This document shows positions 3,720-22,021 of a stretch of 22,127 bases of DNA, one piece after another. A program made the position numbers and the translations under genes. The notes below the pieces were generated by a model that had not been told where the DNA came from, ran no database searches, and saw only the letters and a list, made by a program, of their open reading frames with translations. Each line of letters begins with the position of its first letter. Position 1 is the first letter of the stretch. This DNA is from a virus. The DNA is taken from positions 1-22,127 of the IMG/VR virus record IMGVR_UViG_3300050821_003936; one strand, given 5' to 3'.

Positions 3720-4109
3720 TTAAGGAACATTATAAAAGTCAAAGGATGAAGTATGGGCGCACGGTTCAACGCCTTTATTCCAAGACGTAGCCAATCCCTT
3801 ATTACAGTAGTGGTTAGCTCCATTTGTATTATCCGTTAAATCGGCGGCTACAAGTTTTTGAATTGCCTGCCAAGCCTTCCATCCAGGAACATCAGCGGAA
3901 CGTGGAAATTTGGTGGAATTAACATCATTCCAATTAAAAGATGAAAATTGATACTTACGTAATATGACCTCGGCAAGCGTATTTGCCCCTAGATACGAGG
4001 CGGCTAACCGATTACGAGCAACCGACAAAATGCCCTGCCAATCGTCGGACGTTCCTCCACGAGCTTCACGCCATATAAATAATTCAATAAGACTATCCTT
4101 CAAATCCAT
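3720..4109 (-). CDS. Endolysin, SleB-type cell wall hydrolase
   Basis: This 129-residue protein matches the Hydrolase_2/SleB catalytic domain over its whole length. It has 'IWREARGG' with the expected catalytic Glu at residue 15, 'WQGILSVARNR' (residues 24-34), 'FSSFN' near residue 57, 'ALTD/DLTDNTNGANHYCN' near residues 90-103, and a C-terminal 'AHTSSFDFYN'. The family cleaves peptidoglycan glycan strands. There is no signal peptide and no separate wall-binding domain, so release would need a holin. It overlaps the preceding 76-residue gene by 17 bases. The lysis role is inferred from family and context. Confidence 0.85.
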   Translation of the reverse strand: MDLKDSLIELFIWREARGGTSDDWQGILSVARNRLAASYLGANTLAEVILRKYQFSSFNWNDVNSTKFPRSADVPGWKAWQAIQKLVAADLTDNTNGANHYCNKGLATSWNKGVEPCAHTSSFDFYNVP

Positions 4110-8464: not shown

Positions 8465-9223
8465 TCAGAAGCCGAAACCGACGCCAAACATCTGTGGGCG
8501 ATATGGACCCTGACTTACAAGCGGCTCACTTGGGCTAATAACCGGATCACCTAGCTCAAGGCCCTCGCGAGACGCAACCCATTCGATAGACGCCATCATA
8601 ACGGCGGCCTGCCCAGTGGCCGTCATTTGCCCATTCTGCCACGTTATTTGACCGGCGCGAGGATCAGAATCCATTTCCCAAGCTACCCATTTAGCCGTCT
8701 CAATCCACATATCAAAGTAGATGTCATCAAATGGTAGATACGTGGAGGCTATAGTGTTGACATTAATTTTGGCGGGCCGCGTTTTATATTGCCCTTCCAC
8801 AAGATAATCGGGCGAACCAATATTATCTGGAATACGTGGGTATAAGCGAAATGCCTTTTTATCACTTACGTAACATATTGCGTGGGGTAGATATCGTATA
8901 TGCGTTGGCTGTAAGTCTTTAATAATAGCGAGGGGCTGACGATAGGGAGGCACATTGGAGGCTCTCATAAGATTACACCATCGGAGGCCATAAAAATCTT
9001 GTGGTATTACAACGGCGGGGGCTCCATAGTCCTGTTCGTTAGGTACGAGGTAAAAAGGAGGTAAAGAGGCAAGGGACTCGCGCCAATCGTACTTATCCCA
9101 GACGTAATTCATTGTATTATTAACAATATGAACCTGCAAATCTCTATCAGTTGCAGCAGGAATTTTTCTACGAATTATATCTAAAACATTTGCCCACGTA
9201 TAGGTTGAGGGTCTGGCGGACAT
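8465..9223 (-). CDS. Head-tail connector protein 2 (podovirus adaptor type)
   Basis: The 252-residue product starts with helices ('VLDIIRRKIP', 'LQVHIVNNTMNYVWDKYDWR') followed by 'LASLPPFYLVPNEQDYGAPA', 'PQDFYGLRWCNLMRAS' and a C-terminal helical part with 'MDSDPRAGQITWQNGQMTAT' and 'SIEWVASREGLEL'. The layout, with N-terminal helices, a Trp-rich turn, a beta section with a P-x-DF motif and a C-terminal helix bundle, fits adaptor proteins that dock on the portal ring. It is clearly related to connector 1 at 10255-10977, with the same N.T..Y.W...WR, P.DF, D.RAG and TGQ landmarks. It follows the endonuclease gene with a TAAATG junction. Confidence 0.65.
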   Translation of the reverse strand: MSARPSTYTWANVLDIIRRKIPAATDRDLQVHIVNNTMNYVWDKYDWRESLASLPPFYLVPNEQDYGAPAVVIPQDFYGLRWCNLMRASNVPPYRQPLAIIKDLQPTHIRYLPHAICYVSDKKAFRLYPRIPDNIGSPDYLVEGQYKTRPAKINVNTIASTYLPFDDIYFDMWIETAKWVAWEMDSDPRAGQITWQNGQMTATGQAAVMMASIEWVASREGLELGDPVISPSEPLVSQGPYRPQMFGVGFGF

Positions 9224-9568
9224 TTACTTATTCCATTTCTTTAAATAATTTAAGGCAGTCTCTACTATTATTTTATCATCATAGAGCATTCCAAGTCCTA
9301 AATTACATTTTCTACATAATAATTCACGAACTTGACCAGTTATATGATTATGATCGACATATAATTTTTCAGTATGCTTCTTACAGATCGCACATTGTTT
9401 ATTTTGTTCTATAACTTTTCTATCATATTCTTCTATTGTTAACCCGTATGTTATTTTTAAGTGATAAGAACGTTTATTAAACACACGATCTCGTTTCTTT
9501 TCTTTCCAATATTTTTCATAATAATTTTTATGATATTCTCGTCTCTTAACTGTATCTTTAAGGGGCAT
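9224..9568 (-). CDS. Endonuclease VII-type HNH (His-Me finger) nuclease
   Basis: The 114-residue product has a lysine-rich N-terminus, then the recombination endonuclease VII signature: 'YGLTIEEYDRKVIEQNKQCA', zinc ligands C59/C62 and C85/C88, the DHNH core at residues 72-75 and the conserved Asn after the last cysteine (CRKCN, residue 89). The family cuts branched DNA in T4 or acts as a free-standing or homing-like nuclease elsewhere. The gene is visibly AT-rich (about 26-28% G+C by hand count of four lines) compared with its neighbours. It sits between otherwise connected structural genes, so it looks like a mobile insertion. Confidence 0.85.
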   Translation of the reverse strand: MPLKDTVKRREYHKNYYEKYWKEKKRDRVFNKRSYHLKITYGLTIEEYDRKVIEQNKQCAICKKHTEKLYVDHNHITGQVRELLCRKCNLGLGMLYDDKIIVETALNYLKKWNK

Positions 9569-9571
9569 AAT

Positions 9572-10255
9572 CTAAAGATTCCAAGGAGTTTCCGCATGTC
9601 TAACAAGATAAATACCGGGAAATAAAAAGGGCACTCCATCCAACATTTTAGGAAGACGCTTAAAATTCCACTTATTCTTTAACTTATATAACCATATCAC
9701 TTCTAGCGGATAACCAATATCTCGATTATATATCGTATGGTCATAATCCACATCATCTGGTTCCGGTTCGCCACTATACTCAGCCAGCCACGCTTCTATC
9801 GCGTTAATATCGTGAAAGTGCGTCACAACTAGAATACGCTTAGACGTATGTTCAGTCCAAACCTCCATTATTTCTTTCATTTTCGTTATTACACGATTTT
9901 TAAATGATAGAAAAGATTCCCCAGGCTTGGTAGACTTAGGTCCCATTCCTTCCGGCACTACCCAAGGACGTTTCTCCACTAATTCCTGTATTTTTGGCAA
10001 AACCTTATCTTTGGGTTGGCCCTCAAAAGCCCCTAAAGGCCAACTTGTCAATTCCTCGGAGGGACGCATAAAGGAGACATTAGGACAGGCTGTGGCAAGG
10101 GCGTGGGCCGTTTCTAGTGCCCGAGCCTGGGTGGATGTATAAACACGCCAGAAGCACCCTTTAGCGGCAAATTTTTGACCAAGTAGCCGAGACTCTTCGC
10201 GGCCCTGTGTGGTAATATGGAGGTCGGTACTACCTCGAATTAAAGAATCCGACAT
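9572..10255 (-). CDS. Circularly permuted histidine phosphatase (phosphoglycerate mutase-like)
   Basis: All landmarks of the histidine phosphatase superfamily are present but rotated. The protein opens with 'LIRGSTDLHITTQG' (residues 5-18), which in the family follows the N-terminal RHG motif. 'VYTSTQARALETA' (R45), 'EEL' (residues 67-69), 'LGAFEG' (74-79), 'KPGES' and 'ILVVTHFHD' (H146) come next. The catalytic 'GIYLVRHAETPWNL' (R219, H220) forms the last residues before the stop. The C-terminal end and N-terminal start together recreate the usual short link between ETxWN and RG. Both active-site histidines and both arginines are therefore retained, and activity is plausible. The start overlaps the stop of connector 1 (TAATG). 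The substrate and phage role are unknown. Confidence 0.88.
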   Translation of the reverse strand: MSDSLIRGSTDLHITTQGREESRLLGQKFAAKGCFWRVYTSTQARALETAHALATACPNVSFMRPSEELTSWPLGAFEGQPKDKVLPKIQELVEKRPWVVPEGMGPKSTKPGESFLSFKNRVITKMKEIMEVWTEHTSKRILVVTHFHDINAIEAWLAEYSGEPEPDDVDYDHTIYNRDIGYPLEVIWLYKLKNKWNFKRLPKMLDGVPFLFPGIYLVRHAETPWNL

Positions 10256-10977
10256 TACTTACTCAATTTGACTTCCTGATCGGGACCGCCCATTGGTGGA
10301 GATATAGACAGGAGCTTCTCGCGTTCTTTCATCAATAAGATATTGGCCTCAAAAACACCACGTTGGCCGGTAAAAGTAACCTTATTGGACGCGGGATCTA
10401 TTTGAGCCCCGCCCGCACGTTGGTCATCAGCAAAAAGATAGGCGTAGTATAGAACGCCCGACTCGTAGACCCAAAACCATTCATCGTCAAAAACTTGAGT
10501 ACCAGCGGTAAAAATATTAAGAGATGTTAATACTGGTGATGTGCGCTTATAGTAACTATATATGGTGGCCGAATAAACAGGATCTAAGGCACCGGGATTT
10601 GGATAAATATTGACAGCAGTACTACCACCAGGAACGGGACTATTTACTGCAATCTGTGAAGTTTGACCGTACTGAGCGAGAAAGGTAGTTAAAATGGGTT
10701 CTACAGATAAAACACGAATACTTGCCGTCTCTTTAACTGCCATATATGAATATAAAAGATATAAAAAATCGGCTGGACAAGTTACGGTATATTGTTGAAC
10801 ATTGGCGGAAATATTAAAGGAGGGAAATGCACCTAAAGTCCATCGCCAAGGCGCGGCCATCCACATATATTTAAGTGTCTGATCCAGTATATCAACTTGC
10901 ACTTGTTCAAGCGACATATTTTTGATAAATCGCTTGGCATAGTCGAAAGCCTGGATCGGCTGATATGTAGAGGCCAT
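10255..10977 (-). CDS. Head-tail connector protein 1 (podovirus adaptor type)
   Basis: The 240-residue product has N-terminal helices ('LDQTLKYMWMAAPWRWTLGA'), a beta section with 'QQYTVTCPADFLYLLYSY', 'DEWFWVYESGVLYYAYLF' near residue 165, 'ADDQRAGGAQIDPASNKVTF' and a terminal 'TGQRGVFEANILLMKEREKL'. The layout matches portal-docking adaptor proteins of short-tailed phages. It is a diverged paralogue of connector 2 at 8465-9223. No strong ribosome site precedes the ATG. It ends with a TAATG overlap on the phosphatase gene. The function is inferred from architecture and position after capsid genes. Confidence 0.65.
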   Translation of the reverse strand: MASTYQPIQAFDYAKRFIKNMSLEQVQVDILDQTLKYMWMAAPWRWTLGAFPSFNISANVQQYTVTCPADFLYLLYSYMAVKETASIRVLSVEPILTTFLAQYGQTSQIAVNSPVPGGSTAVNIYPNPGALDPVYSATIYSYYKRTSPVLTSLNIFTAGTQVFDDEWFWVYESGVLYYAYLFADDQRAGGAQIDPASNKVTFTGQRGVFEANILLMKEREKLLSISPPMGGPDQEVKLSK

Positions 10978-11008
10978 GTCACAACGTTACGCAATATCCT
11001 GGTCAAAT

Positions 11009-11422
11009 TTAGGCATCTGGGCCACCAATCCATTCAATAGGTATACGCAACCAGGGCGGTAACGTCTGTTGCGTATATTCTTTCGCACAAAAAGCACAAA
11101 TAAAATGATACTGATGTTGATGATCGCGCTGTCCCGCTATAGCCGGTTGCATATTAGGTTTCATATGGGGGCAGGCCGACTGTAATGCCTCTTGTCTATC
11201 CCTCCCCTTTTGCATTTCTAAAGCCCCATTTAACTGGGCCTGTTTTGCAACACGATCAGTCTCATCCTGTTCGGCCATATCCTTAGCCAATTTTTTATAC
11301 TGAAGAGCAAGTAGCCCTTTTTGCATTTCAAGAATATCTGGGTCCGTTGAAGCAGGGAGACCACTATCTTTAGCCGCCGCCAAAACATCCAACGGATCAG
11401 TATGAGTTTGTTTATTTGACAT
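11009..11422 (-). CDS. Phage protein with C-terminal zinc ribbon
   Basis: The 137-residue product has a helical, charged N-terminal half (residues 28-80) and a likely zinc-binding C-terminal part. C84-P-H86 and C109-F-C-A, with cysteines 109 and 112 spaced CxxC, flank a histidine-rich loop 'GQRDHQHQYHFICAFC'. The aromatic/Pro-rich end 'LPPWLRIPIEWIGG' follows. The start has TAGGA seven bases upstream. It lies directly before connector 1, so a role in head completion is possible, but no such function is shown by the sequence. Confidence 0.7.
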   Translation of the reverse strand: MSNKQTHTDPLDVLAAAKDSGLPASTDPDILEMQKGLLALQYKKLAKDMAEQDETDRVAKQAQLNGALEMQKGRDRQEALQSACPHMKPNMQPAIAGQRDHQHQYHFICAFCAKEYTQQTLPPWLRIPIEWIGGPDA

Positions 11423-11426
11423 ATAT

Positions 11427-11442
11427 TCCTATATTAATTATA
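11427..11442 (-). promoter_or_regulatory. TATAAT box plus AGGA ribosome site before the zinc-ribbon gene
   Basis: On the minus strand this reads TATAATTAATATAGGA, a perfect TATAAT followed by AGGA, then an ATG seven bases on. It lies in the 26-base gap after the 219-residue gene. No clear -35 box is present. Confidence 0.45.
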
Positions 11443-11448
11443 CCTTTA

Positions 11449-12108
11449 CTAGTTCCACGTTTGGAACGAAGTATTACGTCCCGTAAACTTAGCCCATTCT
11501 GCCGTTGTGCCATGAGAAAAGTATCTTTCAATGTCGGATATGGTAATGAGACGTTCACCGAGTAACTTAAGTAGGACGGTGCGCCAGCCGCGTTTAATTT
11601 CGCGTCCTATCTGCTTAACACGCTTAAAACCGGGCCTAACTGTCGTATCATCAAATACGAAACCTACCCCCGGCACAAATTCATACTTACCAAGATCCTT
11701 CCGCGTAATTGACTTAGTACGATTAATAACATCTCGATCTGGCAACTCGCGTTCTACTAACTGCATAACACTATGTTCAGGCATAATACCACGTTCATAT
11801 GGTACTATCGTCTCTAGCTCCGTAAGAGACTTGACACGCATTATTGCTTTTTTAGTAATATTAAATGGATTATCTTTGAAGAAACAATTGGAAGGTAGAA
11901 TTTTGGCGAGGCGCTGTTCTAGTTCCCACGAGGTCATAGAATGTCCCATTTGTTTCATATTATCTGTAGGATCGATAAGACGATCTTCTACGTAGATAAG
12001 ATGGGACTCTTCTTCGGCAATATATTTTAAAAGATCCTGTTTCTGTTTTTCTACTCGATCACCGTGCGCTAGTACCGCGAATTGTTTATCTGTAGTCCGA
12101 AGGTGCAT
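11449..12108 (-). CDS. Conserved-looking phage protein of unknown function
   Basis: The 219-residue product is well ordered and charged, with no signal peptide or membrane segment. Residues 20-110 are helical and Glu/Lys/Arg-rich, with 'MTSWELEQRLAKILPSNCFF'. A middle 'YEFVPGVGFVFDDTTVRPGF' looks like a beta hairpin. The C-terminal part, 'GWRTVLLKLLGERLITISDI' and 'YFSHGTTAEWAKFTGR', is basic and could contact nucleic acid. No strong ribosome site is seen before the ATG, so it may be coupled to the upstream membrane gene, which ends two bases earlier. No family is recognised. Confidence 0.65.
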   Translation of the reverse strand: MHLRTTDKQFAVLAHGDRVEKQKQDLLKYIAEEESHLIYVEDRLIDPTDNMKQMGHSMTSWELEQRLAKILPSNCFFKDNPFNITKKAIMRVKSLTELETIVPYERGIMPEHSVMQLVERELPDRDVINRTKSITRKDLGKYEFVPGVGFVFDDTTVRPGFKRVKQIGREIKRGWRTVLLKLLGERLITISDIERYFSHGTTAEWAKFTGRNTSFQTWN

Positions 12109-12110
12109 AA

Positions 12111-12353
12111 TTATTTTGAATTTGACTTAAGTGCTAATTGATCGATAATTTTCTGATCTAATATTTCAATTTGACGTAACTCAATATTAATATCATCCAT
12201 TTTCTTACTTAACTGCACAACGTCTCCTCTAGTATCTTCCAATTTTACCTGCTCAATCGTAACATCATTCTGAATTTTCCAGGCCCAGCCGCCGAGAGAA
12301 ATGATAATAGGTATAAGGCAACCTACGGCCCAATGTAGTAAATTCGGCGGCAT
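12111..12353 (-). CDS. Membrane-anchored coiled-coil protein, possible holin or spanin-like
   Basis: The 80-residue product has one N-terminal membrane segment (about residues 7-25, 'HWAVGCLIPIIISLGGWAWK') followed by a coiled-coil stretch to residue 75, with regularly spaced Val, Leu and Ile among Asp, Glu, Lys and Gln. One membrane anchor plus a coiled coil is the plan of several phage lysis proteins (inner-membrane spanin subunits, some holins). It is far from the endolysin gene, which weakens a pure lysis call. It starts right after the stop of the 160-residue gene. Confidence 0.55.
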   Translation of the reverse strand: MPPNLLHWAVGCLIPIIISLGGWAWKIQNDVTIEQVKLEDTRGDVVQLSKKMDDINIELRQIEILDQKIIDQLALKSNSK

Positions 12354-12836
12354 TTATGTTCCCACTACGTCCGGTAGCGTAGCTGTTAAAGGTGTGGTGC
12401 CAACTGGAATAGTAACTCCACCTGTCGCCGCTATTGGATCTATTACATTTGTAGTAGTTACAAAAAAAGTGGCTGACGGACCACTTACTTGATTACTTGC
12501 GGAGTCATACAAATACCATTGATAGCCGGAACCAGGGGGTACTATGTCAGAGTTTAAATAAAGACCACAAGTAGTATTATATTGACCATTTATAATTGGA
12601 ATACGTTGGAATAGTGGAAGAGGCATTCCAGGGTAAATCTGACCGTAATTGGGCGTTAGGGATTCGCCGGGAGACATAGTGGGAGGCGCTACGGTTGGTA
12701 CCAATAAATTGACAAGAAGGAACCCATTAAATGGAGCTACGTTGGTACCACTGGAAGTCCAAAAATATTGGGCTGTATTTGAAAATTGGGCTACACGCGG
12801 AGGTGTGATAGGTTGTGAAACTGGCAGCAGTCCCAT
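12354..12836 (-). CDS. Virion-type beta-rich protein
   Basis: The 160-residue product is Pro/Thr/Ser/Val-rich with few charges. It contains 'FWTSSGTNVAPFNGFLLVNL', 'PNYGQIYPGMPLPLFQRIPI', and a C-terminal segment 'GYQWYLYDSASNQVSGPSAT'. It looks like a small beta-sandwich structural protein. The initiating ATG at 12836 lies about 14 bases after AGGGAAA; an earlier ATG just upstream is followed at once by TAA, so it cannot be the start. It is the first protein gene after the tRNA. The function is unknown. Confidence 0.6.
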   Translation of the reverse strand: MGLLPVSQPITPPRVAQFSNTAQYFWTSSGTNVAPFNGFLLVNLLVPTVAPPTMSPGESLTPNYGQIYPGMPLPLFQRIPIINGQYNTTCGLYLNSDIVPPGSGYQWYLYDSASNQVSGPSATFFVTTTNVIDPIAATGGVTIPVGTTPLTATLPDVVGT

Positions 12837-12847
12837 TACATTTTATT

Positions 12848-12864
12848 TCCCTATATTAATTGTA
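12848..12864 (-). promoter_or_regulatory. TACAAT box plus AGGGA ribosome site after the tRNA
   Basis: On the minus strand this reads TACAATTAATATAGGGA, 16 bases after the tRNA 3' end. It closely resembles the element before the zinc-ribbon gene (TATAATTAATATAGGA). Confidence 0.4.
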
Positions 12865-12879
12865 ACAGGTACTTAGGAG

Positions 12880-12955
12880 TGGTTGCAGGATCGAGATTTG
12901 AACTCGAATCTTTGGGACATGAACCCAACATCCTACCGGGTTAGACCATCCTGCG
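12880..12955 (-). tRNA. Initiator-type tRNA-fMet (anticodon CAU), CCA encoded
   Basis: This is a complete 76-base cloverleaf. The acceptor is CGCAGGA/TCCTGCA with a C1xA72 mismatch and six good pairs, followed by A73 and an encoded CCA. T8 and G9 precede a D stem GTCT/GGAT with a G18G19 loop. The anticodon stem TTGGG/CCCAA has a loop TTCATGT, giving anticodon CAU. The variable loop has four bases, and the T stem TCGAG/CTCGA closes a TTCAAAT loop. The C1xA72 mismatch and three consecutive G-C pairs in the anticodon stem are the established marks of bacterial initiator tRNA. The 11-24 pair is T-A, the elongator-like orientation, so the molecule is not a perfect copy. It is the only tRNA in the window. 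Confidence 0.92.
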
Positions 12956-12960
12956 ATATG

Positions 12961-13003
12961 GCCCGACAAAGAATAAAGGTAATTGGAAAATTCTCTATCG
13001 GGC
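12961..13003 (-). repeat. Inverted repeat (hairpin) just before the tRNA
   Basis: GCCCGA and TCGGGC form a perfect six-base stem around a 31-base AT-rich loop, ending five bases before the tRNA 5' end. In the transcript it could set the processing of the tRNA precursor or form part of a structured leader. Confidence 0.5.
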
Positions 13004-13007
13004 GGCT

Positions 13008-13071
13008 CACCCAGCAGGAAAGGGGTCTAAGGAAAGGAGGTAGAAACTTAGACTACCCTCTCCCTTGGGTG
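13008..13071 (-). ncRNA. Long RNA hairpin with anti-Shine-Dalgarno sequence in its loop
   Basis: The minus-strand RNA folds into an imperfect 64-base hairpin. The inner stem is perfect, GTCTAAG (13053-13047) with CTTAGAC (13031-13025). The outer arm pairs CACCCA with TGGGTG and has further G-rich/C-rich pairing between. The 15-base loop (13046-13032) reads TTTCTACCTCCTTTC and holds ACCTCCTTTC, the sequence at the 3' end of 16S rRNA in many bacteria. It lies about nine bases downstream of the predicted transcript start and in front of the initiator-type tRNA. The fold is seen in the sequence; any function is inference. Confidence 0.5.
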
Positions 13072-13076
13072 CGTTG

Positions 13077-13120
13077 GGCTATTCATAATGTAACATACAT
13101 TACACTCGAAGTCAATAGCC
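13077..13120. repeat. Nested inverted repeat over the promoter, possible operator
   Basis: GGCTATT and AATAGCC (outer arms, seven bases, perfect) enclose TAATGTA-TGT-TACATTA (seven-base perfect arms around 13085-13101). The inner repeat covers the -10 box and part of the spacer, the usual place for a repressor or activator site. Confidence 0.5.
13087..13115 (-). promoter_or_regulatory. Strong sigma-70-type promoter for the tRNA leader
   Basis: On the minus strand TTGACT (13115-13110, five of six consensus positions) is followed by exactly 17 bases and TACATT (13092-13087, four of six), with TG one base before the -10 (extended -10). The predicted start is near 13080, just before the hairpin and tRNA. 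It is the best canonical promoter seen in the window. Confidence 0.6.
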
Positions 13121-13128
13121 ACAAAGGT

Positions 13129-13215
13129 TCAATAATCTTGAACGCGCATTAACACCATTACGAGTAATGCCGTATTAATCACTAATAGACTTACGATAAT
13201 GACTATCGGGTCCAT
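13129..13215 (-). CDS. 28-residue single-pass membrane peptide
   Basis: The product is MDPIVIIVSLLVINTALLVM followed by VLMRVQDY. Residues 4-23 are an uninterrupted hydrophobic helix, long enough to span a membrane. The ATG lies one base after the stop of the 47-residue gene (TAATATG), so it is probably coupled to it. Such a peptide could act as a tiny holin-like or regulatory membrane peptide, but nothing confirms this. The reading frame is short, so chance cannot be excluded; the stop-start junction and pure hydrophobic character speak for it. Confidence 0.5.
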   Translation of the reverse strand: MDPIVIIVSLLVINTALLVMVLMRVQDY

Positions 13216-13216
13216 A

Positions 13217-13360
13217 TTACCAAACTGCTTTCCAAACAGCCTTAGGCATCGTCACAAATACAACCTTAGGTGTGGCCTTTACAACCTTAGCAGCAGTTCT
13301 GACCACACCACCGTACATCAGCGCACTTGCGAGAAAGGATACTAGAAACAGTTTCCGCAT
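13217..13360 (-). CDS. 47-residue protein with N-terminal hydrophobic segment and basic tail
   Basis: The product begins MRKLFLVSFLASALMYGGVV, which is a signal-peptide-like or membrane segment. A repetitive basic tail with alternating Lys, Val and Ala follows (RTAAKVVKATPKVVFVTMPK, then AVWKAVW). GGAT precedes the ATG by about seven bases. It starts four bases after the stop of the major capsid gene. The tail, if exported, would be a short cationic amphipathic peptide that could act on membranes; this is inference from composition only. Confidence 0.55.
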   Translation of the reverse strand: MRKLFLVSFLASALMYGGVVRTAAKVVKATPKVVFVTMPKAVWKAVW

Positions 13361-13363
13361 ATA

Positions 13364-14353
13364 TTATCCAATCGAACTGGCAGCGTCAATCATCTTATAT
13401 CGGTAAGTACCACCGATAGACGGAGGCCCATCAAGGACAACGGACACAAATACGAAGTTATAAGATACAGCCGCACCAATCACACCTTCGGGATCAGCGA
13501 TAGAAGGTTCACCCTTGACTACGTTAATTTTAAAGCGCTGTTTAGTGGGATCTTTAACGTCCGAGGGGCCACGACCTTCTAGGTCAACGGAACCGATACC
13601 GTTACGTCCGAATACATACACACGATACAGATTAGGTGTACCGGTTGTCTTAAGCACATTAGTACTTTCGATAAGACGGCAACCGGCAATCTGCGTAACC
13701 AAGCCGCGATCTTCATACCGAACCAAAGGAGTATCCTTCGGGCTAGTATACTTAAAGATATCAGCCAAACCAGCGGCGGCAGGATCGTTTACCAAATCAT
13801 ACGTACAGAAAGGATGAGCAATGGCGAAAAAGTTGCCATCTTCCATCGGAAGTACGTCGTTAGCCTGTAACGAATGCCGCGAATTACGAAGGTCGGCCAC
13901 GCGCAAAAAGGTGCCCAAAAGAGATTGTTTGGTACCACCAATTTCCGCATCAATGACCGCCCGCGTAATGGTATCGACCGACAGGCCAGCCGAGTATCCA
14001 AGTAATTCGGAGGCATTCTGCACGACCGGATCAATGGCCGTATCTTGTAGCAAGTCGGACACGGTAATAAAGGCCGTGTACTGACTCACAGTCGCGCCCA
14101 CGATCCGCGAGGTCATGGACAGTGACGTGCCAACCGTACCCTCGGTAGTAGGCGTGGTATTTGCTCCGAAATTGATATAACGAAAGAACTGGACCGTTCG
14201 ACCAACTTGCTTCGGCAGCATATCACGCATACATGCATCACGAAAGACAAATTTCTTTTGGAGACGATCTAGTCCCTTTTTTCTGTAATAGACATTAGCG
14301 AGATGCGCTAAGCCCGCCGATGAAGTCTGATTACCTGCTGGTTGGTAGGCCAC
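13364..14353 (-). CDS. Major capsid protein, N4-gp56 type
   Basis: The 329-residue product fits the N4-gp56 family of HK97-fold capsid proteins. It has 'RLQKKFVFRDACMRDMLPKQ' near residues 30-50, then 'GRTVQFFRYINFGANTTPTT' and 'EGTVG', then 'VSQYTAFITVSDLLQDTAID' and 'LLGYSAGLSVDTITRAVI', all typical positions for the family. A C-terminal domain with 'RVYVFGRNGIGSVDLEGRG' follows. The length is normal for the family. The start codon is GTG, with AAGGA eight bases upstream, giving a product beginning MAYQPAG. It follows the decoration gene in the order scaffold, decoration, capsid. Confidence 0.88.
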   Translation of the reverse strand: MAYQPAGNQTSSAGLAHLANVYYRKKGLDRLQKKFVFRDACMRDMLPKQVGRTVQFFRYINFGANTTPTTEGTVGTSLSMTSRIVGATVSQYTAFITVSDLLQDTAIDPVVQNASELLGYSAGLSVDTITRAVIDAEIGGTKQSLLGTFLRVADLRNSRHSLQANDVLPMEDGNFFAIAHPFCTYDLVNDPAAAGLADIFKYTSPKDTPLVRYEDRGLVTQIAGCRLIESTNVLKTTGTPNLYRVYVFGRNGIGSVDLEGRGPSDVKDPTKQRFKINVVKGEPSIADPEGVIGAAVSYNFVFVSVVLDGPPSIGGTYRYKMIDAASSIG

Positions 14354-14378
14354 GAATTATTCCTTAATATCCACGTAT

Positions 14379-14861
14379 TTACGAAACTGCGGGATCAAAA
14401 TCCTGATTTTCTGCAACTACAATCGTAAAACCCGCATCTGCAATTTCAGTTTGGGGTGAAGCTGTTCGCGTCAGCGTCCAAACAATCTTCAAATTATCCC
14501 CCGCCTTAACGGCCACATTAGCCGCATTCAAAGTCGGAGGCGTCACACCGGTTCCACCAACCAAAGTACTGGCGAACACATTACCAGCGGCCTTAGCGAT
14601 AGAAGGAACGGTAGAAAAAAGAGTATTACCAGTATTAGTATTGGTAACTTGACACGAAAGCGAAAGGGGATTAGTATTATCGGCTCCCATTGTCATAGAC
14701 AAATCAGCCGCCGTAATTTTACCCGCCCGCATTACTGTGAAATTAGTTGAAGTAGGAGCCGAGGTAACATTTCCTACTGTGCCCGCCGTAAAATGGCGTT
14801 CAACTAATTGGGGGATAGCAAATCGATCATTGGTAGAAAAGGTGCGAAGTCCTACAGCCAT
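14379..14861 (-). CDS. Probable capsid decoration protein
   Basis: The 160-residue product has no signal peptide and is rich in Thr, Ala, Val and Asn. It starts 'MAVGLRTFSTNDRFAIPQLV', followed by 'TNFTVMRAGKITAADLSMTM' and ends with 'LKIVWTLTRTASPQTEIADA' and an FTIVVAE strand. The alternating pattern suggests a beta sandwich. Its size, composition and position between scaffold and major capsid genes fit a head decoration or fibre protein. An AGGAAAT element lies 14 bases upstream of the ATG. Confidence 0.65.
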   Translation of the reverse strand: MAVGLRTFSTNDRFAIPQLVERHFTAGTVGNVTSAPTSTNFTVMRAGKITAADLSMTMGADNTNPLSLSCQVTNTNTGNTLFSTVPSIAKAAGNVFASTLVGGTGVTPPTLNAANVAVKAGDNLKIVWTLTRTASPQTEIADAGFTIVVAENQDFDPAVS

Positions 14862-14874
14862 GTTCTTACTTATT

Positions 14875-14890
14875 TCCTATTCATATTTTA
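14875..14890 (-). promoter_or_regulatory. TAAAATATGAATAGGA element before the decoration gene
   Basis: This 16-base word is identical to the one before the portal gene (18686-18701). It combines a TAAAAT -10-like box with an AGGA ribosome site. Here it overlaps the last codons of the 43-residue ORF; before the portal it overlaps the terminase stop. Confidence 0.45.
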
Positions 14891-15008
14891 GCATTAAGTT
14901 ATTATTAAAATTATTAAAATGATAAGCGGGCAAGCCACACGGCTCATAAAATGCGGTATTTGCCCTTAAAACCTGCTCGTTGTTAAAATAGAGGTCGTAG
15001 CTTACCAT
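14877..15008 (-). CDS. 43-residue hypothetical protein between scaffold and decoration genes
   Basis: The product is MVSYDLYFNNEQVLRANTAF followed by an Asn/Tyr/Phe-rich stretch (YEPCGLPAYHFNNFNNNLML, then KYE). Its ATG overlaps the scaffold stop (TAATG), the same coupling seen for established neighbours, and the frame fills the interval almost up to the decoration gene. No family is recognised. The unusual Asn/Phe content and short length leave doubt. Confidence 0.5.
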   Translation of the reverse strand: MVSYDLYFNNEQVLRANTAFYEPCGLPAYHFNNFNNNLMLKYE

Positions 15009-15985
15009 TACCGTTGAATTGGCTTTCCCATACGAGCAAATACATTTTCAATTTGCTCCACACTTAGATCGTCTGGATTAAAGCCGCCTCCCATTTGAGA
15101 AGGCATATTACGATTTACACCGGGAGGCGCATTCAAGTAGGGGTTATTTGCGAATTGTGGAGGTAGGTTAAATCCAGGGGCCGGTGCCAGTCCCGTTCCA
15201 CCGTTCCACTGCCGAGGATCTACTTGGCCGGGATATTGAGGTTGGCCTTGAAATTGGGTCTGATCATAAGGATTTTGCCAATTTTGAGGTGGCTGTTGAT
15301 ATTCACCGGACTGTTGCAATTGTTGAGCCTGCTGAGCTTGTGCAGCGGCCTGTTGACGTTGGGCGTAAAAGTTGGGTAGGAAACCTTTATTAATACCCAT
15401 TAAGTAGGCTGCATCCAGGCCATTTGCATCATATGGCAAATTCATTTGCTGGCGAATTTGCTCAATCTTATTGGCATTTTCAGCTCCACCAGGAAATTCA
15501 GGATGGGCTTCTTTAAACTGATACACGGCCAAAGTACGCTTGGTATTTTCAAATTCCTCTAAGCGGGCACGTAACTCACCAGGAGCATCAGTAGCTTTAC
15601 CCTCAAATATAAGTTGATTAAAAGCATACTCCATAGCGTCTTTAGGCGACTTTTGCATTTTCTCAATAAATGCTTCATCAGACCACTTAGGAGTTTCATC
15701 GCCCGTAACATATGAACCTTGTTTATCGTGTTCAGCCACTTTTTGCTGTAGCTGTGCCATTTGAGAGGCCGTTGAACCTACGAATTGATTAAGTGAAGAT
15801 TCAAGTTCCTGAAGAGAATTATAGGTAAGGGATTTATCACCTACTTTAATAGTAAGCGGCTGTGCTTGCGGTGTAACAACTTGCTGTTGCTGTTGTGTTC
15901 CGGCACTTGCGGACGCCTTCTGTTGTTCCTCTAAAACTACTTCACGAACAAATTGAGAGAAGTCTTGGTTTGGATCGGCTGCCAT
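15008..15985 (-). CDS. Capsid scaffold-like protein
   Basis: The 325-residue product is acidic to neutral, Gln-rich and mostly helical. A short N-terminal part (residues 1-45) has a polyglutamine patch. A small beta-like 'LTIKVGDKSLTYNSLQELES' follows, then coiled-coil helices (residues 60-190), a Gln/Ala-rich stretch (about 208-225) and a disordered Pro/Gly/Gln tail. A final 'DDLSVEQIENVFARMGK' helix could bind the capsid protein. This layout and the position between portal and major capsid genes are typical of scaffolding proteins. No protease motif is visible. Confidence 0.75.
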   Translation of the reverse strand: MAADPNQDFSQFVREVVLEEQQKASASAGTQQQQQVVTPQAQPLTIKVGDKSLTYNSLQELESSLNQFVGSTASQMAQLQQKVAEHDKQGSYVTGDETPKWSDEAFIEKMQKSPKDAMEYAFNQLIFEGKATDAPGELRARLEEFENTKRTLAVYQFKEAHPEFPGGAENANKIEQIRQQMNLPYDANGLDAAYLMGINKGFLPNFYAQRQQAAAQAQQAQQLQQSGEYQQPPQNWQNPYDQTQFQGQPQYPGQVDPRQWNGGTGLAPAPGFNLPPQFANNPYLNAPPGVNRNMPSQMGGGFNPDDLSVEQIENVFARMGKPIQR

Positions 15986-15990
15986 ATATT

Positions 15991-16006
15991 TCCTATTATT
16001 ATTGTA
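15991..16006 (-). promoter_or_regulatory. TACAAT box plus AGGA ribosome site before the scaffold gene
   Basis: On the minus strand this reads TACAATAATAATAGGA, followed by AATATATG. It lies in the 33-base gap between the 128-residue gene and the scaffold gene. Confidence 0.45.
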
Positions 16007-16018
16007 ACTCTTTCATTA

Positions 16019-16405
16019 TCAAATTAAATTACCATAGCCACCAGTATTTCCCCAAGTACCAGATTCTAGTGGAGGATAAGGATTACCAGTTTTACTATTA
16101 TTATGCATTTGTTTAAATATTTCCCTCACTTTTTGATTTGTCTGTTGATTAGGTTTAAGTCCCAAATCTTCCTTATACTGTGTTTCAAGTAATGCCACCA
16201 CATCTCCGGGTACGGTCCTAAGCTGGCCGACAATATAACGGAGAGCACGCCAGTAAGGTAGTAACTCCAGGGTTTTCTTTTCATCTGTAGTTGCGCCTAT
16301 CGTATCAGTTAGATCATCAGCGATGGCTTGTAATTTATCTATAAGTAATATATATGCCGGATCACTTGGTAAAGTAGTAAGTAATTCTAATTCTTGTGGT
16401 GTCAT
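16019..16405 (-). CDS. Small helical protein between portal and scaffold genes
   Basis: The 128-residue product is largely helical and mixed in charge ('MTPQELELLTTLPSDPAYIL', 'LLPYWRALRYIVGQLRTVPG', 'QKVREIFKQM') and ends in a glycine-rich tail (GTWGNTGGYGNLI). It starts three bases after the portal stop. No membrane segment or catalytic motif is visible. Position suggests a head-assembly accessory. No family is recognised. Confidence 0.7.
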   Translation of the reverse strand: MTPQELELLTTLPSDPAYILLIDKLQAIADDLTDTIGATTDEKKTLELLPYWRALRYIVGQLRTVPGDVVALLETQYKEDLGLKPNQQTNQKVREIFKQMHNNSKTGNPYPPLESGTWGNTGGYGNLI

Positions 16406-16408
16406 AAA

Positions 16409-18682
16409 TTATGTAGCTTTAGGGGGCCGCGCTTTATGCCGCGTCTCGCTCGTCTTCTTAGGAGGCTTACCTGTCGCTTGTCCCGGCTCACTAGCCTGCT
16501 GCACACCCTTGGGGTACTTATCCGCCAGCCCCTGTCGTGTCTGGGCCTGCACACTTTCACCCTGTAGCTGTTGCAACATCTGAGTCATCTTCATCTGATG
16601 ATCCATTTGTCCCTGTTCACGCTCATTTTGTGAAGCCTGATTTGCAACTTGGACATCGGCCTGTTTTTTCTGCAAATCCATCTTGTGTTGTTCATGCTTA
16701 GCCGCAAGTTCAATTTGAGCCATCTGCTGTTTTTGTTTAAGTTCTTGTGCGGCCTTAACCATTTCCATCTGCATCTCTTGGGCTTTTTGTTGCGCCTCCA
16801 TTTGCATTTCGGCCTGTTTAGCTTGTATTTCCCAAGGATTGGGCTGTTTCTTTATATTTTCTTTCTGAAGATCACCCTGAACCTTCATCTGCATTATTTC
16901 TTTACGAGTCTGACCCTCTTGTTGTGCCTTTTGCATATCGGCTTGAACTTGGGGCGGCGGCTGTTGAGTAGCCTGATGTTCCTGTTGATTCATGGGACGT
17001 ATAAGTGAATATACTTTAGCCACGCCCGTTGCATCTTGAATCATACGGAAAAGTTCATCAAAATCCACTGTACGTCCCGTTTGTTGTAGGGACGACATAA
17101 TATTACCGGTCGAAATAGTTTGCATCCAGAAAGGTAATACCTGCATTAATTCTTGCTTCGTAACCATGCGGGAGGCGGCTAACATACGAAAGCGTACTTT
17201 TTTCTGAACCGTCGATGACTCAATTTCGTAGTACTGACCTTGTGGTGATGAAGCAGGCAGCGCTTGACCGGGACGAGTATGAAACTGGAGAAGTTTTTGT
17301 AACTTATATAGAACCGGCACTAACAAATATGTCTCAATATTGTTGACTATTTCGGACAATCTTGACCCTGATCCTTGCTGTTGCATTTGCATTCCGCCCA
17401 AAGTACGATTAGCATTGGAAGGACGGGGAGCAGAACCAGAAGACACGCCATTAATACCGGTTCGACGTTCAGCACTAAGTTCCAAATACTGAATATCTGT
17501 AAAAACATTTTGTGTATTATTATTTACCTGTAACAATGAAACATCATCTTTATTATCGGCACTAAATACAACACCAGGACGCCACTTTTGTTGAGCCGGT
17601 GTCAATAATGTTGAACGCTTTTGTACTCGTGGGGGATGTAACAATAATGTTAACTCATCGTAATGGGCATTTAAAAGCGCCTCAATATATCTTTGATTAT
17701 TTTCCTGCACATCAGCAATAGACTGGGCGTAAAAACGAGAAGGAACAATATAACAGGGAGAAAAAGCAAACGGAATAAAACCATATGGATTCGGTCCATT
17801 ATATGCAATCCATTCTTTATTCAATACCCATATAATACGACTTTTAGAATAATAAATTAGAACTTCAATTTTTTGATCAGCAGGCAGTGGAATGAAGTCC
17901 GAAAAACCGGGACTATAGTAAATACCCCGGAGTGCCTCTTGTACTCGCTTAGTATTCTCAGCATTAGCTTGCGGTACATTCTTGGCCATATACCACAAAA
18001 TATCACCCGAAGGAATGCTCATCCGAGGATCTTTTTTTAACTGCATTATTTCATCAATCGTCATAAATTTACGACGAATAACAGAACGTCCCTCATCAAT
18101 ATTAGGAACTATAAGGCCGGGATCAATATAGAAATCACGTAAGTCCACCCATTCTACGACCGGCCTATTTAATGTAGGCGACCATTCGACCGAGACACCG
18201 CCATTTCCGTAAAGGAGGGTATTCTTAATGGCTAACTTTATTTCAGTGATCGCATTAGACCCAAGTTCATCTTTAGGATGTTCTAGTGTATAGGCTAATG
18301 AGTTTTGAATATCTTTCGCTTCTTTAGGATCTGTCCCCGGCTCTGCATCTACCTGAAACCATTCGGGACCAATACCAAATATTGAATTGGTAATTGCGGG
18401 TAAACTTGCCTCCACTTGGTCGAATACAATCGGCTGAGTATATGCGGCTCTCGCCACATTTGAACCATCCCATACGCGAGGAGGAACATAACCGAAGTAT
18501 AGGGAATCATGGGTGTTCCAACGACGATCATGATTCATCGTTCGAAATTGCTCATATGCCCAGTACGTTTCATTTACTAACGCCAAGGCATAACTGTCCG
18601 TAATACTCTGTTCCGCAGTCTTAAGAGGCTCCTCTATAAGAGTTGCGGGAGTAATTATGGGCGGCTGACGTTCAACGGGCAT
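16409..18682 (-). CDS. Portal protein (podovirus type) with long coiled-coil C-terminus
   Basis: The 757-residue product has the portal pattern of short-tailed phages. An N-terminal helical region with 'YWAYEQFRTMNHDRRWNTHD' and 'YTQPIVFDQVEASLPAITNS' is followed by a central 'LLYGNGGVSVEWSPTLNRPV' and 'VEWVDLRDFYIDPG', and a later 'GSRLSEIVNNIETYLLVPVL'. It is a dodecameric DNA channel that also binds terminase. Residues from about 575 to 735 are an unusually long Gln/Lys/Met-rich coiled coil, followed by a basic tail. GGATAC precedes the ATG. The length is at the upper end for podoviral portals because of the coiled-coil tail, which might line the barrel region inside the capsid. Confidence 0.85.
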   Translation of the reverse strand: MPVERQPPIITPATLIEEPLKTAEQSITDSYALALVNETYWAYEQFRTMNHDRRWNTHDSLYFGYVPPRVWDGSNVARAAYTQPIVFDQVEASLPAITNSIFGIGPEWFQVDAEPGTDPKEAKDIQNSLAYTLEHPKDELGSNAITEIKLAIKNTLLYGNGGVSVEWSPTLNRPVVEWVDLRDFYIDPGLIVPNIDEGRSVIRRKFMTIDEIMQLKKDPRMSIPSGDILWYMAKNVPQANAENTKRVQEALRGIYYSPGFSDFIPLPADQKIEVLIYYSKSRIIWVLNKEWIAYNGPNPYGFIPFAFSPCYIVPSRFYAQSIADVQENNQRYIEALLNAHYDELTLLLHPPRVQKRSTLLTPAQQKWRPGVVFSADNKDDVSLLQVNNNTQNVFTDIQYLELSAERRTGINGVSSGSAPRPSNANRTLGGMQMQQQGSGSRLSEIVNNIETYLLVPVLYKLQKLLQFHTRPGQALPASSPQGQYYEIESSTVQKKVRFRMLAASRMVTKQELMQVLPFWMQTISTGNIMSSLQQTGRTVDFDELFRMIQDATGVAKVYSLIRPMNQQEHQATQQPPPQVQADMQKAQQEGQTRKEIMQMKVQGDLQKENIKKQPNPWEIQAKQAEMQMEAQQKAQEMQMEMVKAAQELKQKQQMAQIELAAKHEQHKMDLQKKQADVQVANQASQNEREQGQMDHQMKMTQMLQQLQGESVQAQTRQGLADKYPKGVQQASEPGQATGKPPKKTSETRHKARPPKAT

Positions 18683-18685
18683 GTA

Positions 18686-18701
18686 TCCTATTCATATTTT
18701 A
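18686..18701 (-). promoter_or_regulatory. TAAAATATGAATAGGA element before the portal gene
   Basis: This is identical over 16 bases to the element before the decoration gene (14875-14890). The TAAAAT box includes the terminase stop codon, and AGGA serves as the portal ribosome site three bases before its ATG. No -35 box is evident. Confidence 0.45.
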
Positions 18702-20558
18702 CAACTTAAAGGCATCTGGATTTACGACCAAGTTAACGTCTGAATCTGGTGATGGAGGCCATATTTCAATTCCCAATCGCTTATTCCAATGTTCCTCTCT
18801 CACACGTTGAAAAATATGTTGCCGCTGCCATTCTGGTATATCCGTCCCTCCGGTGCCATATTTTTTAGGATCTTCGCGTATTACAGTGGTCGGATTAAAC
18901 CGCGCCGCTTCACGACCAAAGTATTCTTTATTAGCCAAAAAGTCAGCCACCGCATCCAAAATATCATCGGTTTGACCGGCTGGAAACTGTTCTAACTCTT
19001 TGAGTAAATGCGCCCAAGCATCTTTATTAATATCATCTAAGAAACGTAAGTCATCATTCTTATACCAAGGTTGTAAAGACTTTTCAATTCTATCCAACTT
19101 CTTTTGACGATTGCCGCGTTTTACCGGCTCTATAACGAAATTAATTCCCTTGGGCCGTAAGTCCGTATCTAAGACGCGGTTAATAGATGCCATAAGACCG
19201 CGTAAGTAACCGGTTTCTTCTATTTTTATAACACGTAAAAATCGCCTATGTTTAAGCGCAATACCGAATATAATATTAATAACTTTATCGGCCAAAAATC
19301 GACCATGATAAATTTCTTCCACGTATAACTTACCCGACTGTGATACAGCCCCCACTACGATAGCCGTATAATTAGACCGTTGATTATCTGTCTCCGCAAG
19401 GTCAACAGTAATCTCTTTATATGCAACACGAATATTTTGATAATCTTGACGAGATATTTTCTTAGGAAACTCATTATTTACTGGAAAAGCAACATATCCT
19501 TCCATAGTTGCAATTGGCCAATTTAATTTCTGGGAAGCAAATTCAAAAGGATCTACTTTTTCTTGCTGTTCTAATTCTTTAAGCGGAAATCTCTCGGGCC
19601 ACCAAGGTATACGATTGCCCTGTTCATCTAGTAAAAAGGGATACTTCATATCATCAGGAGTGAATGATTCGCCGCCAGGAATATTACGTTTAAAAACACT
19701 TCGTATATGTATCTTATATGTCCGCTTCTCTAGAACCGCCTCCATTTCAGAATCAAGAATTTTACGATAAATATCCCCAAAGTGATAGGTAGTACCTTCT
19801 ACATCCATCCAATATTTAGGACCAATAAGAAGATTAGCTGAAATATAAAATTTCTTACGTACTATCTCTAATCCATTACCGCTAATATTATTTTCATCTA
19901 CAATGTCAGAAAATTTAATAACTTCAAAGTGATAACCTGCCGCTCCTTTTTCAATAGCTCCCGTCATTACGGTAGGTTCTTTACGAACATCCCATTTTGG
20001 CCTAGCCTCAGTAATAAAACGGTCGGCACGCCCCCACTGGTCTATACCTTTCCACGGTACATATTCAGGAAAAAGTTCCCGAAAATACTGATTATATTGA
20101 AAATGCCCCTTTATTTCATTCAAAACATCACTTGCCTTCTGGTCCTGGCCCATAAAGATAAGGATGGCAATACGGGGATAGTTCAAAATCCACTGTATTG
20201 TGTGCCCAATAGAGTTAATAGTGGTCTTAAGGTGCCCTCGGGGATCGAGAATAAGGGTGCGACGGCCTCCTGGGAGTGCTTCTAGAGGTAAAATAGGCTT
20301 ATATTCCCACTTACCATTAACAATTACATCGTTTTTATCGAATTGATCCTGTGTGGGGGAAGGAAACTTCTGTAAAACATCGACTATAGGCTGGTGTAAG
20401 GCCCTCCAGGGACCACCAGAGGCATCAGAAACGTCCGAATAGTTCAAAACCTCACGGCAGAGCCACCCAATATCAGTTCGGGCCTTCCAACGAGCCGCCC
20501 GACGCATAAAATAGAGCTTTTCGTTCTTTAAAACGGCTCTTAAGTCTATTTTTTCCAT
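18699..20558 (-). CDS. terL: Terminase large subunit (packaging ATPase and nuclease)
   Basis: The 619-residue product has an N-terminal ATPase with a deviant Walker A 'LDPRGHLKTTI' (residues 104-114), a Walker B-like 'FEVIKFSDIVDEN' (211-223) and a coupling motif 'EGTTYHFGDIY' (254-264). The RNase H-like nuclease follows, with 'ITVDLAETD' (D387), 'VIKIEETG' (E447/E448) and 'DDILDAVADFLA' (D531/D532, D535), giving the expected acidic metal ligands. The length is normal. The enzyme cuts and pumps phage DNA into the head through the portal encoded next. The ATG at 20558 has no Shine-Dalgarno sequence, has an in-frame TAA two codons upstream, and lies inside a 55-codon ORF in another frame. A later start at Met18 is possible but would remove only a short helix. 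Confidence 0.92.
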   Translation of the reverse strand: MEKIDLRAVLKNEKLYFMRRAARWKARTDIGWLCREVLNYSDVSDASGGPWRALHQPIVDVLQKFPSPTQDQFDKNDVIVNGKWEYKPILPLEALPGGRRTLILDPRGHLKTTINSIGHTIQWILNYPRIAILIFMGQDQKASDVLNEIKGHFQYNQYFRELFPEYVPWKGIDQWGRADRFITEARPKWDVRKEPTVMTGAIEKGAAGYHFEVIKFSDIVDENNISGNGLEIVRKKFYISANLLIGPKYWMDVEGTTYHFGDIYRKILDSEMEAVLEKRTYKIHIRSVFKRNIPGGESFTPDDMKYPFLLDEQGNRIPWWPERFPLKELEQQEKVDPFEFASQKLNWPIATMEGYVAFPVNNEFPKKISRQDYQNIRVAYKEITVDLAETDNQRSNYTAIVVGAVSQSGKLYVEEIYHGRFLADKVINIIFGIALKHRRFLRVIKIEETGYLRGLMASINRVLDTDLRPKGINFVIEPVKRGNRQKKLDRIEKSLQPWYKNDDLRFLDDINKDAWAHLLKELEQFPAGQTDDILDAVADFLANKEYFGREAARFNPTTVIREDPKKYGTGGTDIPEWQRQHIFQRVREEHWNKRLGIEIWPPSPDSDVNLVVNPDAFKL

Positions 20559-20640
20559 TTTTTAGGCCACAAGTAGGTTCTGCAAACTCCCATTCCGAGG
20601 GATCATCTATGAGAAGGTTGGTAATTTCATCAAAATTCAT
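20473..20640 (-). CDS. 55-residue ORF overlapping the terminase start
   Basis: The product begins MNFDEITNLLIDDPSEWEFA and continues with a basic stretch. Its ATG has TAGGAT upstream, a better ribosome site than the terminase has. The frame runs 86 bases into the terminase gene in another frame. The first 25 residues look protein-like (acidic, with Leu-Ile-Trp); the part overlapping the terminase may just be run-on. It probably serves to couple translation onto the terminase start. No family is recognised. Confidence 0.45.
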   Translation of the reverse strand: MNFDEITNLLIDDPSEWEFAEPTCGLKNGKNRLKSRFKERKALFYASGGSLEGPN

Positions 20641-20645
20641 CGTTA

Positions 20646-20662
20646 TCCTATCCCTATTATAA
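20646..20662 (-). promoter_or_regulatory. TATAAT promoter element upstream of the terminase
   Basis: On the minus strand this reads TTATAATAGGGATAGGA, with a perfect TATAAT -10 box followed by the AGGA ribosome site of the 55-residue ORF. The -35 region is weak. It lies in the 55-base gap below the 106-residue gene. Confidence 0.45.
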
Positions 20663-20695
20663 GCCGCAGGGCTTCGACGGGCTAAGATATTGATT

Positions 20696-21016
20696 TTAAA
20701 AGCCGTGATAGTACACTGGGAACTGCAAATCGTGTTCCGGGGCCACTGATGCTATAAATTTATAATATTGAATACCTTCAAAGTCGGGGGCGTTAAATAC
20801 TATAACTTTTCTATCCTTCCAGATAGTAAATGCAAAGGGTATATCAAAATTCATAAACTGATAGATCGGCATAAATTCATTTCCATCAGCGCTCCCAAGG
20901 ATCGTAATAACTATCTGTTCAGGAGAAGAGGGGCAATAAATGGCGGCTATCTGCGAATTACCGAGGCATTCTACGGAACTCTCAAGTTTACCTTTTTTAA
21001 TTTCGACAGTATACAT
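20696..21016 (-). CDS. Small beta-rich phage protein of unknown function
   Basis: The 106-residue product alternates hydrophobic and polar residues ('MYTVEIKKGKLESSVECLGN', 'EQIVITILGSADGNEFMPIY', 'RKVIVFNAPDFEGIQYYKFI') and looks like a beta sandwich. There is no signal peptide or membrane segment. It starts two bases after the stop of the 43-residue gene. Proteins of this style are often virion accessory or appendage proteins, but no family is recognised. Confidence 0.7.
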   Translation of the reverse strand: MYTVEIKKGKLESSVECLGNSQIAAIYCPSSPEQIVITILGSADGNEFMPIYQFMNFDIPFAFTIWKDRKVIVFNAPDFEGIQYYKFIASVAPEHDLQFPVYYHGF

Positions 21017-21018
21017 AT

Positions 21019-21150
21019 TTAGCCATTGGTCGGTGGATCATTATTTGCTTGAGTAGGCACACTTGATTGTTGGTCGGTAGGTATAGTTAGAGTGCCAATA
21101 GGGACATTTATTTGAACTATTGCCGCATCTACTATACCTTGTAATGCCAT
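21019..21150 (-). CDS. 43-residue hypothetical protein
   Basis: The product is MALQGIVDAAIVQINVPIGT followed by a polar, Pro/Gln/Asn-rich tail (LTIPTDQQSSVPTQANNDPP, then TNG). It starts one base after the end of the 141-residue gene and stops two bases before the next start, so it fits exactly between them. A short hydrophobic beta part and a disordered tail are all that can be seen. Confidence 0.55.
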   Translation of the reverse strand: MALQGIVDAAIVQINVPIGTLTIPTDQQSSVPTQANNDPPTNG

Positions 21151-21151
21151 A

Positions 21152-21577
21152 TTAACCTGCCGCCGTATCTATTTGTGTAACTTCTGGATCTACAATTAAT
21201 GAACCATTCATAATTTCATATTTATCACTAGAGGTATCAAACATTTGTAAGTCATAGACAAGATAAATACGATGCCCTATCGGACAAACTGGAGGCGTAA
21301 AATTACTACAAGCAGTTCCAGTGTAAACCTGTGATGGAATATGAATTGTTATAATACCTCCAGATGTATTTGTAATTATAATCCCAATAAAACAACCAGT
21401 TGTTACAGCCTGATCTGTTATTATAAATAATGCTTTATTATCAGGATCGTGTATATTAAACTTAGCCGTAAAACGAAAATGATAGCCAGTAATATTTAAT
21501 GGTGCCCCATTAAGAGTTATATTTACTGTCGCATTCCAATCCGTATTACGGAAGACATGTATATTTTGTTGAGCCAT
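21152..21577 (-). CDS. Conserved virion-type beta-sandwich protein
   Basis: The 141-residue product starts 'MAQQNIHVFRNTDWNATVNI' and contains 'GYHFRFTAKFNIHDPDNKAL', 'GGIITIHIP', 'RIYLVYDLQMFD' and a terminal 'IMNGSLIVDPEVT'. The order of an N-terminal strand before a bound partner, a 'FTAK..I.DPD' hairpin and a final 'G.l.V.PEVT' strand recurs in a short protein of many tailed phages, possibly a baseplate or fibre attachment domain. No Shine-Dalgarno is seen, so coupling to the upstream gene is likely. The function is not established. Confidence 0.7.
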   Translation of the reverse strand: MAQQNIHVFRNTDWNATVNITLNGAPLNITGYHFRFTAKFNIHDPDNKALFIITDQAVTTGCFIGIIITNTSGGIITIHIPSQVYTGTACSNFTPPVCPIGHRIYLVYDLQMFDTSSDKYEIMNGSLIVDPEVTQIDTAAG

Positions 21578-21580
21578 ACA

Positions 21581-22012: not shown

Positions 22013-22021
22013 TAATTTTCC

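Follow-up and report, generated by a model that had tools for sequence, protein, structure and literature searches.

Gene organization at the locus

The window, i.e., the whole stretch of DNA analysed here, is an IMG/VR virus record of 22,127 bases. It carries a gene for a protein related to the histidine phosphatases (Table 1), the chain of which starts with MSDSLIRGSTDLHITTQG and terminates with GIYLVRHAETPWNL directly before the stop codon (residues 214–227), with an RHAETPWN motif in this last segment. Reading of the open frame confirms an earlier note on this DNA, which had placed the RHA motif at the C-terminal end (residues 214–226 of 227) and had listed R45, LGAFEG and H146 in that order. 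The ATG shares one base with the stop codon of the gene before it, and is preceded in frame by GTA and then TAA. Because this stop lies one codon upstream of the ATG, no N-terminal motif is missing from the phosphatase, and no RHG motif occurs upstream of the gene in the two other frames that were read.

According to profile matches in the window, the phosphatase shares its strand with genes for a terminase, a portal/adaptor and a major head protein, and on this basis the setting is a virion-gene operon, in agreement with the earlier note. A gene for a cell-wall hydrolase (PF07486), probably the endolysin, is found at positions 3720–4109.

The two paralogous genes that flank the phosphatase region give no match in Pfam, PHROGs or PDB. 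They adjoin each other in about 20 related phage records, and an insert between them is seen only in the window, in the related contig L003 and in L011/L024. Since the flanking genes are mostly adjacent and the gap is variable, the region between them is regarded as an accessory slot and the phosphatase as an accessory gene. The slot of L024 (8711–9656) holds two unrelated ORFs, one of which (131 aa) is on the opposite strand.

Table 1. Features at the phosphatase locus (window coordinates).
Feature	Position	Strand	Description	Basis
Circularly permuted histidine phosphatase gene (most probable reading)	9572..10255	-	227 aa + stop	PF00300 match; rotation test; homologue in same slot in L003
C-terminal segment GIYLVRHAETPWN	9578..9616	-	Residues 214–226; canonical first strand and RH(G) nucleophile loop, relocated to the end	Alignment; AlphaFold2 strand
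New N-terminus MSDSLIRGSTDLHITTQG	10202..10255	-	Residues 1–18; counterpart of the canonical stretch after the RHG loop	PF00300 and PhoE alignments; family alignment
R45	10121..10123	-	Second catalytic arginine	Invariant in 5/5 permuted members
S71	10043..10045	-	Column of the canonical acidic Glu (nine canonical enzymes)	Alignment
LGAFEG segment	10019..10036	-	Residues 74–79	PF00300, PhoE and family alignments
H146	9818..9820	-	Second catalytic histidine	Present in 4/5 permuted members
In-frame TAA stop	10259..10261	-	Just upstream of the phosphatase ATG; fixes the N-terminus	Frame reading
Upstream neighbour	10255..10977	-	240 aa; first of two paralogous genes; stop overlaps phosphatase start	
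Endonuclease VII-type HNH gene	9224..9568	-	114 aa; directly downstream; not in the L003 slot	
Second paralogous neighbour	8465..9223	-	252 aa; closes the accessory slot	

Sequence evidence for a circular permutation

The histidine phosphatases form a large enzyme superfamily, whose accepted hallmark is an RHG motif at the N-terminus. In the window protein, the motif occupies residues 219–221 of 227, and the protein is therefore filed as a permuted variant rather than an ordinary PF00300 member. This placement is not due to chance. The PF00300 model aligns with residues 6–159 at model positions 17–160 (E 4.2e-21, 75.9 bits, cut-off 21.7), which leaves the first 16 model positions, i.e., the RHG strand, unmatched at the N-terminus. 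When the sequence is rotated to place the C-terminal segment first, a single match covering model positions 1–160 is obtained, and the score increases from 75.9 to 86.9 bits. The same rotation raises the scores of the four permuted relatives described below, from 57.3 to 60.3 bits in L003, from 64.0 to 75.2 in L042, from 66.3 to 75.2 in L040 and from 73.0 to 77.5 in L041, such that all five members give a continuous and better match from model position 1.

Comparison with the PhoE structure sequences (1h2e/1ebb) divides the protein at the same place. With HMMER, residues 215–227 align with PhoE 4–16, and residues 6–150 with PhoE 20–154; for a profile of the five family members, positions 210–225 correspond to PhoE 3–18 and positions 6–158 to PhoE 20–162. 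The rotation gain and the PhoE alignments bear out the earlier proposal of a circular permutation with ends in the ETxWN/RG loop. The only PHROG match of all five members is phrog_12933, which covers profile positions 22–157 of 197 in the window protein (5e-11, 44 bits). Rotation increases this score from 44 to 57.2 bits and moves the match start from 22 to 4, an improvement which indicates that the PHROG 12933 family has the canonical order. A search for C-terminal RH motifs returned a hydrophobic residue followed by RHxxTxxN within the last 35 residues in 3 of 3280 distinct ORFs from the fetched loci, all three belonging to the permuted family.

Based on these alignments, we consider the window protein very probably to be a branch-1 histidine phosphatase that has undergone a true circular permutation (probability roughly 0.85), with the new ends between ETxWN and RG. 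An alternative is that the unusual ending stems from an assembly artefact or misjoin, in which case the RHA segment would be the beginning of a second, canonical phosphatase, or the real N-terminus would be absent. Assembly does appear difficult here, as IMGVR_UViG_3300021170_000160, which is 100% identical to window positions 10285–22127 (11,843 bases), stops at 10285, 30 bases before the phosphatase gene. The junction at this position is nevertheless real, since L003 keeps the gene order across it, with a permuted protein 53% identical to that of the window. The three further permuted members in other contigs, the absence in the window of an RG..D.PL continuation after the C-terminal motif, and the in-frame stop just before the ATG also speak against a misassembly. 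The earlier note had itself named an assembly error as something that would overturn its reading; we rejected this explanation, and regard it as extremely improbable, because four permuted relatives are found in other contigs.

A canonical phosphatase locus could alternatively have been split or rearranged by insertion of the HNH endonuclease gene, giving the odd ending, and this gene does begin only a few bases after the phosphatase stop. The L003 slot, however, contains the permuted protein without any HNH gene, and no HNH gene follows the motif in the other members. We rejected an HNH insertion on account of L003, and its chance of being correct is negligible.

Predicted structure

The circular permutation is compatible with the predicted structure. 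AlphaFold2, run for the window protein on the five-member alignment, gives a pLDDT of 86 and a pTM of 0.86, and strand 214–219 falls within a block with a mean pLDDT of 96. The pTM, together with the Foldseek matches listed for the PDB, which are phosphoglycerate mutases and histidine phosphatases with sequential TM scores of 0.5–0.7, points to a phosphoglycerate mutase-like fold. Among viral predicted structures, the best TM score is 0.54. A permuted homologue should have scored higher, and neither the PDB nor the viral set thus seems to hold one.

The first strand of the histidine phosphatase fold occupies the middle of the sheet, flanked by the strands equivalent to residues 37–41 and 140–145 here, and the fold could therefore hardly form without it. 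The C-terminal strand is expected to fill this central place, beside H146, a predicted placement that rests on the strand assignment, its confidence and the fold's need of the strand. We envisage that the old C-terminus, a strand ending near residue 200, would be connected to the old first strand, IYLVRHA, by some 13 linker residues, with the new ends falling in the ETxWN/RG loop. The C-terminal strand would then bring H220 and R219 to R45 and H146. In a prediction of the L040 domain with 50-residue flanks, confidence is confined to the core and does not extend to either flank, in keeping with a self-contained permuted module.

Relatives and their distribution

The four permuted relatives all derive from other IMG/VR contigs, and identities among the five members range from 28 to 53%, most pairs being 28–38% identical. 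Residues R45, Y216, R219, H220, T223 and N226 are invariant. The closest relative, on the 67-kb contig L003, was reached via a neighbour gene; it is 53% identical to the window protein, occupies the same slot, and ends with GIYFIRHFMTGWNK. L042 (same contig as L036) has a stand-alone permuted protein encoded a few hundred bases upstream of a terminase gene and ending with AVYIVRHCSTRLN followed by 12 residues. In L040 and L041, the permuted domain resides within giant ORFs, of 2887 aa and more than 3707 aa, respectively, with the same domain borders. Each of these domains has a single RHG, located at its end, and no upstream RHG that could supply the first strand. As the domain lies mid-chain in both giant proteins, the nucleophile is not the last-translated part there, which counters the suggestion in the earlier note that activity would depend on full-length synthesis.

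The giant ORFs span L040:5076–13739 and L041:5547–16670, the latter part of an open frame of 4142 aa on the whole L041 record. A weak match to ART-PolyVal (ADP-ribosyltransferase), below the cut-off, is located just before the phosphatase domain in L040, and the giant protein of L041 contains a SNF2-type helicase.

Scans of viral contigs with a single protein or with two members retrieved only L003. L042, L040 and L041 could be reached only with the help of neighbour genes and a three-member profile, through a PF00300 search of related phage records combined with profile scans. PF00300 matches occur in only 2 of 23 records related through the neighbour genes, and no permuted member reaches an NCBIfam equivalog cut-off. 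Two scans of genome contigs gave no permuted members, and plasmids gave none; the contig scans are based on short peptide patterns that more members may have escaped. The DNA pattern for RH[GA]ETxWN-x-stop has no match in viral contigs. With tblastn against phage records, only weak matches were obtained, and the seven for which reading frames were read are all canonical; the polyprotein domains gave no tblastn match in the same records.

The existence of two relatives as giant-polyprotein modules with identical domain borders raises the question of whether the stand-alone gene is a functionless remnant, cut from a polyvalent injected protein. Against this, stand-alone forms with clean starts and stops are present in three phages, and those of the window and L003 share a slot. 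Furthermore, these two genes differ at 159 of 448 first and second codon positions and at 142 of 224 third positions, and the lower divergence at the former indicates selection on the protein. We consider a remnant improbable. The permuted phosphatase is viewed as a real, conserved protein family.

Active site and predicted activity

The nucleophile motif of the window protein consists of R219 and H220 followed by alanine instead of glycine, and the second arginine and second histidine of the phosphate pocket are R45 and H146. Across the family, the glycine of RHG is replaced by Ala, Phe or Cys in three members, and the H146 column holds histidine in four of five. The phosphate pocket is mostly, but not wholly, conserved. 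The exception at H146 is L041 (7992–8708), in which this column is occupied by serine (VVGSFRN) while RHG is intact, a possible pseudo-enzyme.

A further difference concerns the canonical acid. The glutamate located four residues before the glycine of LGxxEG is present in nine of nine canonical enzymes, and is Ser, Ser, Ser, Pro and Pro in the five permuted members, directly followed by an invariant tryptophan. The acidic residue of the E-x-x-[LFY]-G segment is accordingly replaced by Ser71 in the window protein. The view in the earlier note that the whole active site had been left intact therefore holds for R219, H220, R45 and H146 of the window protein; it does not hold for the acid, which is Ser or Pro in all five members, nor for L041, which lacks H146.

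Given the absence of the canonical acid, and of H146 in L041, activity is not assured. These two features, together with the loss of the RHG glycine in three members, would be in line with a non-catalytic protein, either a binding protein or a degenerate pseudo-enzyme, whose retained phosphate pocket might serve, e.g., as a sponge for a phosphorylated signal. Such a loss of function is at odds with the invariance of R219, H220 and R45, and the retention of H146 in four of five members, in a family where most pairs share so little sequence. Moreover, the acid varies in some members of the histidine phosphatase superfamily. A non-catalytic role is hence rather unlikely in our judgment, and catalysis by the permuted phosphatase is likely on the basis of residue conservation, while loss of the canonical acid suggests an altered chemistry or substrate. 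We predict that the permuted protein retains phosphate binding, with H220 as the residue converted to phosphohistidine.

Origin of the permutation

In a tree of the five rotated permuted sequences and nine canonical enzymes (E. coli CobC and YtjC, and seven from phage-collection records), the permuted members occupy one side of a branch with support 100/99. The tree was built without members of PHROG 12933, the closest canonical phage relatives, and shows clustering rather than exact origin. The permutation is shared by five divergent members grouped in one clade, and a single origin that predates the split of these phage lineages is therefore most likely. Gene duplication followed by truncation may have been the route. 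In L040, the tail RGAANVPTEQGV after RHGMTAWN (RGAANVP..EQGV) is similar to the beginning of the same domain, RGSTNIPLAPEGV. This similarity is not significant, being equalled in 309 of 5000 shuffles, and nothing of the kind was seen in L041 and L042; there is thus no evidence of a duplication intermediate.

Possible role and implications

The permuted family takes two forms: stand-alone accessory genes, located in virion operons, and modules within giant polyproteins of the injected, polyvalent type. Its most likely role, to which we give slightly less than even odds, is that of an accessory phosphatase that may be delivered together with the genome and would act on a signal of the host, either a small molecule or a phosphoprotein. 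For the polyprotein forms, our best guess from the domain company is likewise that they may be delivered with the genome and aimed at a host signal, perhaps in counter-defence. A broader proposal, offered tentatively and more probably wrong than right, is that a single old permutation gave rise to a distinct and so far phage-only class, with the acid replaced and the substrate or chemistry consequently new, that forms one module of counter-defence proteins carried in the virion or injected early.

A natural permuted class would show that the fold tolerates the nucleophile on the last strand, and would provide a natural experiment on the importance of folding order and of the canonical acid. 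The permutation also accounts for the missing catalytic motif in domain-search reports of these proteins, in which PF00300 begins at model position 17, and it adds a phosphatase module to the polyvalent-type phage proteins.

Comparison with known systems

In the literature searched, no paper was found that joins histidine phosphatases with circular permutation, and looser queries gave nothing relevant. The statement in the earlier note that no phage case was known is upheld by this search, and the family is apparently undescribed. As for the branch-1 histidine phosphatases (PF00300; Bacillus PhoE 1h2e, CobC and the phosphoserine phosphatase PspA), the permuted proteins share the fold, as judged from sequence and Foldseek, and the same R-H...R...H residues, and PhoE is the best PDB sequence match of the window protein. 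Unlike the branch-1 enzymes, they carry the first strand and RH loop at the C-terminus, and have Ser or Pro beside the invariant Trp in place of the acid of E-x-x-[LFY]-G. The PHROG 12933 phage proteins, of unknown function, match all five permuted members, but their profile is in canonical order.

The polyvalent phage proteins (Iyer et al. 2017, PMC5512222) resemble L040 and L041 in forming giant multi-domain chains, whereas the window protein is a single domain. The paper that describes them makes no mention of histidine phosphatase, phosphoglycerate mutase or permutation. Circularly permuted DNA adenine methylases have been reported from phages in a jumbo phage survey (PMC7824862). In analogy to the phosphatase described here, these are permuted phage enzyme domains, but their fold and chemistry are unrelated.
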